From contig NZ_JAJCTH010000009.1 in NCBI RefSeq assembly GCF_020594515.1, positions 62,001 to 126,000 on the forward strand: a stretch of DNA of 64,000 bases, read 5' to 3'. The notes beneath the pieces are model-generated. The model saw only the letters and a list, made by a program, of their open reading frames with translations. It was not told where the DNA came from and made no database searches. Made by a program: the position numbers and the translations under genes. This DNA comes from Rhodoferax sp. U2-2l (GTDB lineage Bacteria > Pseudomonadota > Gammaproteobacteria > Burkholderiales > Burkholderiaceae_C). This document shows, in pieces, positions 60,362-64,000 of this stretch (position 1 is its first letter; each line of letters opens with the position of its first letter).

Positions 60362-60486
60362 GATAATGTTATCGGGATAATAGTTAATTATTCATTACCG
60401 TCATCAATCGTCCGTGACCTGAAGCCGAACCAGGGTTTGTGCGCCAGGACCACCGTCAAAGTTTTTTAACTGCAAGGAGTCGTTCA

Positions 60487-62334
60487 ATGAGTGGCAAGCC
60501 CGTCGGTTACCCGGCAAATGTGAGCAACGAGAAACTTCTGACTTGGGTCAGTGAGATGGCCGAACTGTGCAAACCTGACCGCGTGGTGTGGTGTGATGGT
60601 TCGCAAGAGGAGTACGACCGTTTGTGTGAGGAGATGGTGGCCGCAGGCACCTTCATCCGTCTCAATCCCGACAAACGCCCCAACAGCTTCCTCGCCCGCA
60701 CCCATCCCTCGGATGTGGCCCGTGTCGAAGAGCGCACCTTCATCTGCTCCGCCACCAAAGACGAAGCTGGCCCCACCAACAACTGGGCTGACCCGGCTGA
60801 GATGCGTGCGACGCTGAAGAATGTCTTCACCAACTGCATGACCGGGCGCACCATGTATGTGATCCCGTTCAGCATGGGGCCGCTGGGCTCGCCGATTGCC
60901 AAGATTGGCGTGCAAATCAGCGACAGCGCCTATGTGGTGGCCAATATGCGCATCATGACGCGTATGGGCGCCCAGGTGTTGGACGTGCTGGGCAACGGCG
61001 CCTTCATCCCGTGTATGCACTCGGTCGGCGCACCGCTGGCTCCGGGTCAAAAAGACTCGACCTGGCCGTGTGAGCCCGATATCGCCAAAAAGTACATTGC
61101 CCATTTCCCCGACACCACCGAGATCTGGTCGTATGGCTCGGGTTACGGTGGCAACGCGCTGCTGGGCAAAAAATGCCTGGCCCTGCGTATTGCCTCGGCC
61201 ATCGCCCGCAAGGAAGGCTGGCTGGCCGAGCACATGCTGATCTCAGGCCTGGAGTCCCCTGAAGGCAAAAAAACCTATATCGCCGCGGCGTTCCCCAGCG
61301 CGTGTGGCAAGACCAACCTGGCCATGCTGCGCCCACCCAAGGGCATGGAAGGATGGAAGGTCACCACCGTGGGTGACGACATCGCCTGGATCAAAAAAGG
61401 CCCTGACGGCACCCTGCGCGCCATCAACCCTGAGGCCGGTTTCTTTGGCGTGGCCCCGGGCACCAACTACTCGTCCAACGCCAACGCCATGTTGACCATG
61501 ACGAAGAACTCGATCTTCTCCAACGTGGCACTGACCGACGACGGTGATGTGTGGTGGGAAGGCATGGACGGCGAGCCACCGACCCATTGCATCGACTGGC
61601 AAGGCAAAGACTGGACCCCTGGCTGTGGCCGCCCGGCGGCGCATGCCAACTCACGCTTCACCGCGCCTGCCAGCCAATGCCCCTCGATTGACCCCGACTG
61701 GGAAAACCCCGCCGGGGTGCCCGTGGCCGCCTTCATCTTTGGTGGCCGTGCCAGCAAGGAAATGCCGCTGGTGTTCCAGTCCTTCAACTGGGCGCACGGC
61801 GTTTACCTGGCCGCCACCATGGGCTCGGAAGCCACGGCGGCCGCCATTGGTGTGGTGGCCACGCGGCGTGACCCGATGGCCATGCTGCCGTTCTGTGGCT
61901 ACAACATGGCCGACTACTTCACCCATTGGCTCAATGTGGGGCGCAACGTCAGCAACCCACCACGCATCTTCCGAGTCAACTGGTTCCGCAAGGATGATGC
62001 CGGCAAGTTCATCTGGCCTGGTTTTGGTGACAACCTGCGGGTGCTGAAGTGGATTGCCGGGCGCGTGCATGGTCAAGGCAGTGCCGTGGAAAGCCCGATT
62101 GGCTGGATGCCGCGCTTTGAAGACATCGACTGGACCGGCCTGGACTTCCCCCAGGACAAGTTCTACGACCTGATGGCTGTGGGCCGCGAAGCTGGTACTG
62201 CCGAAGCGCACGCCCACGAGGAACTGTTCGACCGCTTCCGCGACCGTCTGCCCAAAGAGTTCACTTTTGAGCGCGAGTTGCTGCGCTCGCGTTTGTGGCG
62301 CTCGCCCGACCGTTGGGAACTGGCGCACGAGTAA
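60487..62334 (+). CDS. pckG: phosphoenolpyruvate carboxykinase (GTP)
   Basis: 615 residues; converts oxaloacetate and GTP to PEP, CO2 and GDP, the entry step of gluconeogenesis. GTP-type signatures: [21 protein letters not shown] region ([11 protein letters not shown]), [15 protein letters not shown] (the P-loop with the reactive cysteine), [14 protein letters not shown], and [14 protein letters not shown]. The ATG at 60487 follows AAGGAG; upstream frame to 60439 is not family-like. Single-gene unit with an FNR-like site before and a terminator after it. Fits growth on acetate or organic acids together with satP. Confidence 0.97.
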
Positions 62335-62382
62335 GTGTTGATTGACCCCCGGGCGTACTGCGGGGGGTGCATTTGAAGAATC

Positions 62383-62411
62383 CGGCGAGTTTTTGACTCG
62401 CCGTTTTTTTT
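62383..62411 (+). terminator. rho-independent terminator of pckG
   Basis: Stem CGGCGAGT / ACTCGCCG around TTTTG, then eight Ts (62404-62411), 48 bases after the pckG stop. Confidence 0.9.
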
Positions 62412-62497
62412 GGGCTGACATGTCAGGCAGGGATGCAGACGGTCAAACGCATGCCTTTGCTCGGTCAGGTGGCGTTGTGGGGATCTGGGTACGCCAG

Positions 62498-62595
62498 GAC
62501 TCAGGACGACGCGGCACTCAGCTCCGCGGCTGTCCCCCGGCCCTGCGGGCCTCCTCCTTGATGCCGCTACGCTGAATGCCACGCCGTCCTGAGTC
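62498..62595 (-). ncRNA. structured hairpin element 1 (minus orientation)
   Basis: Read on the minus strand: a 25-base arm (62595-62571), GT, the core AGCGGCATCAAGGAGGAG (62568-62551), a small hairpin GCCCGCAGGGC, the core CGGGGGACAGCCGCGG (62539-62524), then a second 25-base arm (62522-62498) complementary to the first. The three imperfect positions become G:U wobbles on the minus strand but would be A:C mismatches on the plus strand. GCGGC and GCCGC of the cores also pair. Class unknown; it could be RNA or folded single-stranded DNA. Confidence 0.6.
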
Positions 62596-62651
62596 AGCCA
62601 ACATGGTGCGACGATTGAGGAATTCATACCGGGCCCGCCCACACCGCTGGC

Positions 62652-62752
62652 GACCGATGAGAGTGGGGTGAATGGTGCAGCGGCATCAAGGAGGAGCCCA
62701 CGCCAGTGGGCGGGGGACAGCCGCGGAAGCATTCGCCCCGCTTTCATCGGTC
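62652..62752 (+). ncRNA. structured hairpin element 2 (plus orientation)
   Basis: Same plan as element 1 on the other strand: a 23-base arm (62652-62674), GTGC, AGCGGCATCAAGGAGGAG (62679-62696), hairpin CCCACGCCAGTGGG (62697-62710), CGGGGGACAGCCGCGG (62711-62726), AAG, and the complementary arm (62730-62752). Both cores are identical to element 1, while the outer arms and apical hairpin have a different sequence but the same pairing. The three irregular pairs are G:U on the plus strand. The 5' ends of the two elements face each other 56 bases apart. The rest of the 62412-62859 gap shows nothing recognisable. Confidence 0.6.
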
Positions 62753-62859
62753 ATCACCCAGAGAGGTAGACGACGTCCAGGCAACAGCGCCTCGGTGACA
62801 CGTCGAATTGCCGCGGCTTTTATCTGGAAGTCTGTCAGCGGCCAACTGAAATTGCGTCT

Positions 62860-64000
62860 TCAGCCCGACAGCGGCTTAAGCAACTCCGCCAAATCACTCT
62901 CGCTAAACAGCGGCTGTTTGCGCCCCACCGAGCCGCTGTACATGCTGTCGGCCAGTGAGGCTTTGCGCTCTTGCAGCGCCAGGATGCGTTCCTCGATGGT
63001 GCCTTGGGCCACCAGTTTGACAACCCACACACTTTGCGTCTGGCCGATGCGGTGGGCGCGGTCGGTGGCCTGGGCTTCCACCGCCGGGTTCCACCAGGGA
63101 TCAAAATGGATCACGGTGTCGGCCTGGGGCAGGTTCAGGCCGGTGCCACCGGCTTTCAAGCTGATTAAAAACAGCGGCACCGCGCCGTTGGTGAACTGGC
63201 TGATGATCTCGTCGCGCTTCTGGCTCTGGCCGGTGAGTTTGACCCACTTCAGATCCCGCTTTTTGAGTTCCGCTTCGATCAGGGTCAGCATGCTGGTGAA
63301 CTGCGAGAACAGCAAAATGCGCCGCCCCTCGGCCAGCATCTCGGGCAGCAACTCCATCAGCTGCTCAAGTTTGGCTGAGGTTTTGACTTTTTTGGCGGCG
63401 TCGAGCTTGAGCAAGTGCGGGTCGCAGCAGACCTGACGTAATTTCAGCAGCGCGTCCAGGATGGTGATTTGTGACTTGGCCAAACCCTTGGTACTCAGCG
63501 CCTCGCGCACGGTTTTCTCCATGCCGAGGCGGATGGTTTCGTACAGGTCGGCCTGTTTTCCAGCCAGCTCCACGCGCATCACGGTCTCGACCTTGGGCGG
63601 CAACTCATGTGCCACCAGCGCCTTGGTGCGGCGCAGCATGAACGGGGTGACGCGCGCGCGTAATTGCTGCAGTGCCTCGGGGTCACCCTGTTTTTCGATC
63701 GGGTGGCGAAACAGCTCGGTAAAACGTTTCTGGCTGCCCAGAGACCCCGGCATCAAGAAGTGGAACAGGCTCCATAACTCACCCAGGTTGTTTTCCATCG
63801 GTGTGCCTGAGAGGCACAGCCGGTGCCGGGTGCTCAGTTCGGCCACCACCTGGGCGGCCTGGGTGGCGGCGTTTTTGATGTTCTGCGCCTCGTCCAGCAC
63901 CACCAGGTGCCATTGGCCTTGTAACCAGCCTTCGCGGTCACGCGGCAGCAGCGAATACGGGGCGATAACGATGTCGTGCTCATGGGTGCTGCCACTGACC
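62860..64000 (-). CDS. SNF2-family DEAD/DEAH helicase, C-terminal part
   Basis: The frame is open to the window edge at 64000, so the N-terminus is missing; 379 residues remain. Visible SNF2 motifs: EHDIVIAPYSLLPRDREGW, motif II VLDEAQNIKN, motif III LCLSGTPMENNLGELWSLF, then the second RecA lobe with LLFSQFTSMLTLIEAEL, FLISLKAGGTGLNLPQADTV and motif VI QATDRAHRIGQTQSVWV. The C-terminus GSVGRKQPLFSESDLAELLKPL is typical of bacterial SNF2 proteins. An ATP-driven DNA translocase; its exact role is not known. The upstream end lies outside the window. Confidence 0.93.
   Translation of the reverse strand, partial: VSGSTHEHDIVIAPYSLLPRDREGWLQGQWHLVVLDEAQNIKNAATQAAQVVAELSTRHRLCLSGTPMENNLGELWSLFHFLMPGSLGSQKRFTELFRHPIEKQGDPEALQQLRARVTPFMLRRTKALVAHELPPKVETVMRVELAGKQADLYETIRLGMEKTVREALSTKGLAKSQITILDALLKLRQVCCDPHLLKLDAAKKVKTSAKLEQLMELLPEMLAEGRRILLFSQFTSMLTLIEAELKKRDLKWVKLTGQSQKRDEIISQFTNGAVPLFLISLKAGGTGLNLPQADTVIHFDPWWNPAVEAQATDRAHRIGQTQSVWVVKLVAQGTIEERILALQERKASLADSMYSGSVGRKQPLFSESDLAELLKPLSG

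Follow-up and report, generated by a model that had tools for sequence, protein, structure and literature searches.

Inverted pairs of hairpins with conserved shape and free stem sequence: an apparently undescribed family of dispersed elements in Rhodoferax and its relatives

The window, i.e. the whole 64,000-nt stretch of Rhodoferax sp. U2-2l DNA analysed here, carries near its right-hand end two hairpin elements, A and B, which lie on opposite strands in the gap between two convergent genes. From their sequences, we take these genes to code for a phosphoenolpyruvate carboxykinase-like protein and an SNF2-like helicase, respectively. By eye, an inverted repeat followed by T's can be seen at about 62380-62411, between the PEP carboxykinase-like gene and the pair, and it looks like the terminator of that gene. 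The components of the locus are listed below; for A and B and their parts, the strand is that which carries the conserved core.

60439..62334, + strand: left neighbour gene of the pair, phosphoenolpyruvate carboxykinase-like
62498..62595, - strand: element A, 98-nt three-tier hairpin, covariance-model match G000:C9:124499-124594:-
62498..62522, - strand: A outer stem, 3′ arm, 25 nt (predicted fold)
62531..62538, - strand: A conserved loop, 3′ side, GGGGGACA (exact core match)
62539..62551, - strand: A apical hairpin with C(GCA)G triloop (predicted fold)
62552..62562, - strand: A conserved loop, 5′ side, ATCAAGGAGGA (exact core match)
62563..62567, - strand: A inner stem, 5′ side, GCGGC, pairing with 62526-62530 (fold; covariation in alignment)
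62568..62570, - strand: A 3x3 loop, 5′ side, GTA, opposite GGA at 62523-62525 (predicted fold)
62571..62595, - strand: A outer stem, 5′ arm, 25 nt (predicted fold)
62596..62651, no strand: spacer between the facing 5′ ends of A and B, 56 nt
62652..62752, + strand: element B, 101-nt three-tier hairpin, covariance-model match G000:C9:124653-124751:+
62652..62676, + strand: B outer stem, 5′ arm, with one G.G mismatch inside (predicted fold)
62677..62679, + strand: B 3x3 loop, 5′ side, GCA, opposite GGA at 62725-62727 (predicted fold)
62680..62684, + strand: B inner stem, 5′ side, GCGGC, pairing with 62720-62724 (fold; covariation in alignment)
62685..62695, + strand: B conserved loop, 5′ side, ATCAAGGAGGA (exact core match)
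62696..62711, + strand: B apical hairpin, sequence unlike that of A (predicted fold)
62712..62719, + strand: B conserved loop, 3′ side, GGGGGACA (exact core match)
62728..62752, + strand: B outer stem, 3′ arm (predicted fold)
62860..63999, - strand: right neighbour gene of the pair, convergent, SNF2-like helicase

Two oppositely oriented elements with shared cores had been described here in the initial annotation, in agreement with both the plain-DNA inverted repeats of A and B (33-nt arms, 82% complementary) and the exact matches of either core, which in the 64-kb window fall in A and B only. The outer stems, given earlier as 25 and 23 bp, are recovered in the fold of the core strand as 25 bp in A and as 23 bp in B, plus one G.G mismatch and one further pair. 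They were said to be unrelated to each other, and indeed the outer 5′ arms of A and B have an in-register identity of 0.42 (locus L019), while the sequences of the apical hairpins differ as well. RNA folding yields z-scores of -10.1 (A) and -9.6 (B) for the core strand and of -6.8 and -6.7 for the opposite strand, with none of 200 shuffles folding as well as A or B on either strand. With DNA parameters, the core and opposite strands fold at -36.0 versus -29.7 kcal/mol for A and at -37.0 versus -25.1 kcal/mol for B, the interior of B folding slightly differently than with RNA energies. The opposite strand has six unpaired places in the outer stems, three per element, and all of them are G:U pairs on the core strand, exactly as claimed.

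The pair is far from alone: where the initial annotation had seen only two copies, the host genome contains 13 exact copies of the core (none for the reversed control), and a covariance model built from these 13, R1, returns 46 matches with E<=0.1, the E value being below 3e-9 for 41. Among 60 genus genomes, 51 contain R1 matches, and the number per genome ranges from 0 to at least 52. A second covariance model, R2, built from 76 matches, detects elements in 114 of the 250 family genomes surveyed, belonging to 68 of 126 genera, and in 9 of 200 order genomes, four of them of its own family and five of two other families; in surveys of more than 40 genomes, element numbers are lower bounds. A scan of named genomes gave at least 115 stretches, 80 of which were used for most counts and the other 35 for the RAYT HMM search and a later pair and wobble set only. 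Among the matches listed, its hosts include Rhodoferax, Variovorax, Polaromonas, Ramlibacter, Hydrogenophaga, Pseudorhodoferax and Aquabacterium, as well as Luteimonas, Thermomonas, Stenotrophomonas, Lysobacter and a Xanthomonas MAG, a range that we take to span beta- and gammaproteobacteria. The Streptomyces match of the same scan (L256) appears to be a chance hit within coding DNA. The window pair had no match in plasmid and phage sequences; for one Variovorax element, matches were found on three replicons of that genus (1.2-1.3 Mb), none of them overlying a listed feature. Viral contigs yielded one match, a single element in IMG/VR IMGVR_UViG_3300036715_002841 (L300).

Comparison with Rfam, which the initial annotation had proposed as a check, gave no match at the gathering threshold either in the window or in four loci from other genera, and two matches at E<=1 among six loci, both far below gathering. 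No description of this core was found among the retrieved titles and abstract starts of the open PMC literature, and a text search for the core strings gave three papers, seemingly unrelated by title. Thus, the hairpins apparently constitute a large, undescribed family of DNA elements of about 100 bases that fold, with the published repeat BRE having been compared by its description and the Burkholderiales-1 motif by name alone. Several variants were seen along the way. Elements with an extra GGACTTGGGGTTTTGCCA-like stretch on the 5′ side of the inner stem (L062, L070, L207, L228, L236, L250, L264) occur across several genomes and stem classes. A third stem class in the host genome (AGCAGCGTGCGTTGGGT...; L031, L032, L037-L040, L042, L043 and others) consists mostly of lone elements with a similar outer stem, a very variable apical hairpin and, usually, a GGTTAAA-like 3′ flank.

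The folded structure is maintained on one strand. In the 76-sequence alignment, which was fitted to the covariance model and therefore leans towards structure, two-sided changes are found at 32 of 33 pairs and 96.9% of cells are paired, a value reached by none of 500 shuffles, with slid controls at 33-42%; further copies with compensatory changes, whose absence the initial annotation would have taken as a refutation, are thus present. An examination of one element per taxon, chosen by core alone, succeeded in 19 of 20 taxa, the single failure being a Lysobacter element at the end of its fetched stretch. Here, 87% of positions pair between an element's own arms (lowest 0.79), as against 54% (highest 0.82) when the arms are swapped between the 19 taxa. 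In the same set, pairing is 0.89 at position 32 and then falls to 0.47 and 0.37, i.e. the arms end at about 32 positions, and an arm end at 31-36 positions is seen in 167 of 207 elements. What is conserved is the shape and the length of the stem; at most stem positions the sequence varies freely.

Irregular pairs give the strand. G:U exceeds A:C by 74:1 in the host genome and by 157:7 in the loci from genus and family; the ratio is 189:9 for the 80 listed named-scan stretches and 102:7 for the 35 further named-scan loci, in sets that accepted elements by the pairing of either strand (26/27, 70/75 and 97/108 kept, and 46/52 in the later set). Since both kinds of pair arise by single transitions and G:U is far commoner, it is the fold of the core strand that is being maintained. 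Taken together, the covariation, the G:U bias and the pairing of elements with their own arms lend strong support to the earlier proposal that selection acts on the folded single strand. It should be kept in mind that copies within one genome are related rather than independent, and that core expressions were used to locate the elements for the wobble, triloop, wider-locus gene-context, arm-end, loop, stem-identity, 8-kb strand-bias, tag and neighbour counts; all of these sets except that for triloops also required a stem, and stem pairing in them is therefore in part a consequence of how the elements were selected.

The 3x3 loop is GNA/GNA in 172 of 207 elements. In the conserved loop, the motif AAGGAGG had been noted as a match to the anti-Shine-Dalgarno of 16S rRNA, a reading not borne out by how its bases vary. 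Over 160 elements, the first position pair is A.G in 149, G.A in 5, C-G in 5 and G.G in one, and the next is G.G in 154, A-T in 5 and A.G in one; among the 17 variant cells at these two positions, ten are changed on both sides, five place a C opposite G and two are exceptions, although such variants are few and may share ancestry. Because this “internal loop” covaries, AAGGAGG looks structural, unlike a copy of a Shine-Dalgarno sequence, and a Shine-Dalgarno role was rejected in view of the ten two-sided variants together with the five that bring C opposite G. The data instead point to a non-canonical helix formed by the purine loop ATCAAGGAGGA / GGGGGACA. At the tip, C(GNA)G makes up 18 of 20, 50 of 64 and 45 of 61 apical triloops in three sets of elements. 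The 17 tetraloops include two GNRA and no UUCG, and apical loops of five or more bases were scored in 3/27, 8/75 and 40/111 elements, the loop finder perhaps having halted at a mismatch.

Elements follow a pairing rule. With the outer end set at 32 positions outside the core and repeats merged, 87 of the 92 neighbours less than 400 nt apart are inverted with their 5′ ends facing, the five rule-breaking cases being two ++, two +- and one --. The spacers of the 87 facing pairs have a median of 49 nt, with 46 at 40-49 nt, 25 at 52-69, eight at 74-107, seven at 138-155 and one at 245. In the host genome, all 11 pairs among R1 matches are inverted with facing 5′ ends (a stricter expression finds eight), and by eye the spacer between A and B is similar to those in the other A/B pairs of this genome. 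The unlikeness of partner stems is general: in 37 facing pairs their identity never exceeds 0.54 and averages 0.42, compared with 0.48 for two random arms, while the best relative of each stem in another pair has a median identity of 0.875. Because such close stem relatives occur in other pairs, re-creation of the structure, one half of the earlier suggestion that the elements are “mobile or re-created” and not simply duplicated, is unnecessary; the other half, mobility, fits the dispersal and the presence/absence pattern, movement itself being deduced from these. Di Nocera et al. discuss unlike stems as a means by which REP dimers escape enzymes that remove large hairpins (PMC3733652), and, by analogy, protection from such enzymes would fit the unlike partner stems here too.

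In the host genome, 36 of 37 placed elements are intergenic, ten of them between convergent genes, 25 between tandem genes and one between divergent genes; these counts cover 37 of the 45 listed elements, eight being without fetched context and the weakest of the 46 matches being unlisted. Wider loci yielded 186 elements: 43 lie between convergent genes, 65 between tandem genes, 15 between divergent genes and 15 inside predicted genes, the remaining 48 being unassigned (27 edge and 21 far cases). Genes were predicted by a simple scoring of codon usage, for which the window served as training sequence. A replication-strand bias was examined as well. Of 13 lone host elements, 12 had the core on the C-rich strand, as did 18 of 29 lone elements of 8-kb loci (8 of 9 where skew was strong), but the bias was not reproduced in two complete genomes (11/19 and 11/22) and was rejected.

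To follow presence and absence, pair sites were compared with those of relatives. At C7:24417 in the host, the genes flanking the pair are the same in three relatives, with no element there. Nine stretches from G002, G004 and G005, picked to cover three pair sites, contain no element, gene order or spacing being different at two of the sites. For the window site, the neighbour genes of the best-matching relative lie on separate contigs, with no element beside either. No movement event or target duplication was seen, and the intergenic flanks of the relatives are too diverged for the ends of an exact empty site to be placed. Conversely, an orthologous pair lies at the same site, between genes that are presumably htpX-like and LysE/RhtB-like, in four genus genomes and one named MAG, from which it follows that residence can be long; this persistent pair could have a local function. 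From dispersal together with presence/absence, we infer that the family is mobile. The relatives also share a separate dispersed repeat, about 95 nt long and rich in hairpins (CACTTCGTGTGGCCGC ... CCCCCTTGCAGGGGG ... GCGGCCCGGC), seen at L123:3285-3384 (G000:C7:26285-26384), in many places in G004 and in some in G002 and G005; it is absent from the R1 matches.

Does the conserved strand act as RNA or as single-stranded DNA? The elements might be structured RNAs, namely small RNAs or parts of 3′ UTRs, the loop of which would be bound by a GGA binder of the CsrA/RsmA type or cut by RNase III, with dispersal as a side effect. CsrA binds GGA motifs, and such motifs lie inside the nearly invariant loop; RNA folding z-scores near -10, the strict tolerance for G:U, the fixed stem length and the scarcity of elements between divergent genes (1/37 in the host, 15/123 in wider loci with both neighbours assigned) would all suit an RNA. 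The G:U share of stem pairs, 10-14%, is normal for RNA. An RNA of this kind is nevertheless rather unlikely in our judgement, as the 76 listed flanks show, by eye, no conserved promoter-like sequence; TTTT just after the stem is absent in 229 of 232 elements, the T-run of an intrinsic terminator being present there in 3/232; and lone elements between tandem genes are sense in 14 cases and antisense in 11 in wider loci, and sense in four and antisense in seven in the host genome (hand count). The near absence of GNRA and UUCG loops, and a copy number ranging from 0 to at least 52 within a single genus, argue in the same direction.

In DNA, loops of the C(GNA)G type have unusual stability, although GNA triloops are also found in RNA. 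The prevalence of C(GNA)G triloops, the mixed orientation relative to genes and the lack of a T-run lead us to favour, with moderate confidence, single-stranded DNA over RNA as the acting form. Extraordinarily stable mini-hairpins occur in DNA or RNA (PMC10527192), and UUCG loops were conversely taken as a sign of RNA for the STAXI motif (PMC2864571).

Several known systems invite comparison. Integron attC sites are hairpins of conserved structure and largely free sequence which are active as one folded strand, and the present elements are likewise conserved in shape, largely free in stem sequence and selected as one folded strand; they differ in that their conserved part is internal rather than terminal and in forming inverted pairs. 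The attC core site GTTRRRY is missing from 62490-62760 and is found somewhere in the arms or flanks of 18 of 232 elements. MITEs such as NEMIS/Correia are non-autonomous units of 70-300 bp near genes with one terminal inverted repeat of 15-30 bp (PMC3733652); our elements resemble them in being small, presumably non-autonomous and close to genes, whereas the unit here consists of two unlike hairpins.

The nearest published repeat in size, GC content, Comamonadaceae hosts and intergenic scatter is BRE (Hot et al. 2011). As described, it is about 90 bp long with an average of 69% GC in Bordetella, scattered and mostly intergenic, with 29 copies in Polaromonas JS666 and four in Rhodoferax ferrireducens; it forms tandem arrays with few or no bases between copies and can be aligned across the class (PMC3110155). 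Although the length, GC, scatter, intergenic sites and the Polaromonas and Rhodoferax hosts agree, the outer stems of our elements differ between genera, which is at odds with alignability across the class and sets BRE apart, at least by that description. In addition, just 3 of 92 close neighbours here have the same orientation (two ++, one --), a weak argument, since tandem arrays are present at some BRE loci only. The other published candidate, Burkholderiales-1 (Weinberg et al. 2010), is a weak structured-RNA candidate from the same bacterial order, tabulated with the mark “?” and no Rfam number (PMC2864571), so that the negative Rfam result says nothing about it. Overall, identity or kinship of the elements with BRE or Burkholderiales-1 appears improbable.

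In behaviour, the elements resemble the REP/REPIN/BIME sequences mobilised by RAYT (TnpA_REP), which are also palindromic, intergenic and multicopy, form inverted dimers and have one active folded strand. Inverted dimers of the REPIN type with 20-100 bp spacers are found here, as 77 of the 87 facing-pair spacers measure 40-96 nt. REPs are 20-50 nt long and most often preceded by GTAG (PMC8266576), whereas the present elements are about 100 nt long, with three tiers, a conserved inner loop and fixed-length stems of free sequence, and have neither a GTAG tag nor a Y1 gene found nearby. GTAG lies beside the element in 6 of 232 cases on the 5′ side and in 8 of 232 on the 3′ side (either strand), with chance at about 4% per 4-mer. 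On the 5′ side, 20 of 232 elements have CGTC, roughly double the 4.3% estimated for uniform bases, in DNA that is GC-rich, and on the 3′ side 17 of 232 have it on either strand; it is not a family-wide feature.

Could the elements simply be REP- or TIR-type repeats moved in trans by the Y1 (RAYT/TIRYT) transposases that most of these genomes possess, a Y1_Tnp match being present in 53 of 60 genus genomes? The repeats flanking TIRYT genes are reported to have GGGGWSAS in common, some TIRs being self-complementary and dimeric, and inverted dimers to be usual among REPs (PMC3733652). Our inverted pairs conform to this usual REP arrangement, and GGGGACAG in the A/B core fits GGGGWSAS, a likeness to the TIRs of TIRYT genes (Di Nocera 2013). 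However, the sole Y1 match of the host genome has its own AATTGGGGTCAGATTCCAATT repeat, most of the 34 listed TIRYT-like loci carry GGGGTCAG-type repeats, and no element was found at any of the 50 distinct Y1 loci examined (31 + 20, one in common; best matches only, about 1.5 kb on each side). Moreover, an HMM made from 15 motif-picked RAYT-type proteins detected no RAYT-type gene in 263 fetched loci, a result that concerns RAYT-type genes only, because the HMM missed both IS200-type control loci. G077, G264 and G476 have no Y1 match, yet contain at least 17 to at least 21 element matches each, while G014, G038, G046 and G006, with four to eight Y1 matches (some of them fragments), have no element. 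With GTAG near the outer end no commoner than chance, mobilisation by these Y1 enzymes is, in our view, highly improbable. For the record, L073:1434-2151 is a Y1 (TIRYT-like) gene of about 240 aa, with similar matches in most genus genomes, and many TIRYT-like genus loci are flanked by AATTGGGGTCAGATTCCAATTA-like repeats.

We also looked for a linked gene by all-against-all BLAST of neighbour ORFs, initially from 88 listed loci (two longer than 7 kb were skipped), and then from those loci together with the 80 listed named-scan loci, taking ORFs within 1.5 kb; no gene was recognised as recurring beside the elements. The searches returned orthologous loci and clusters of up to ten loci, which, judged from their sequences, probably represent common families or antisense frames. 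In three of ten multi-element stretches (L093-L095), ORFs between the elements look like ordinary genes by eye.

The reading that we prefer, and to which we would assign about an even chance of being correct, is that the pair is one copy of a non-autonomous, REPIN-like mobile family which acts as a folded single strand and is moved by an enzyme supplied in trans. Each half is a hairpin, putatively recognised by its shape on one strand, built of an outer stem with a set length but a freely varying sequence, the GNA/GNA loop, a short inner stem, the purine loop with its putative non-canonical pairs and the apical hairpin. The two halves lie on opposite strands with their 5′ ends facing, and by having unlike stems they avoid forming a giant perfect palindrome. 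A structure-reading enzyme, whose gene presumably lies elsewhere, would recognise this single strand in its folded form, more probably as DNA that becomes accessible during replication, repair or transfer than as RNA, and would move or copy the unit into intergenic sites.

More speculatively, and with less confidence than we place in the REPIN-like reading, the pairs may represent a new type of mobile or recombination element that is read by its structure and is common to beta- and gammaproteobacteria. In such a type, two hairpins on opposite strands, with free-sequence stems of about 24 bp serving as rulers and nearly invariant G.G/A.G loops, would be joined, perhaps through their G-rich loops, by an enzyme with no kinship to the RAYTs. 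Elements conserved in shape but not in sequence are hard to find by ordinary repeat and similarity searches, and a family present in 114 of 250 family genomes may therefore have stayed unannotated. The pairing rule, with its mostly inverted and facing arrangement, unlike stems and narrow span of spacings, and the fixed stem length provide clues to an enzyme that would read the shape of a single strand, and the elements themselves supply a defined substrate with which such an enzyme may be found.
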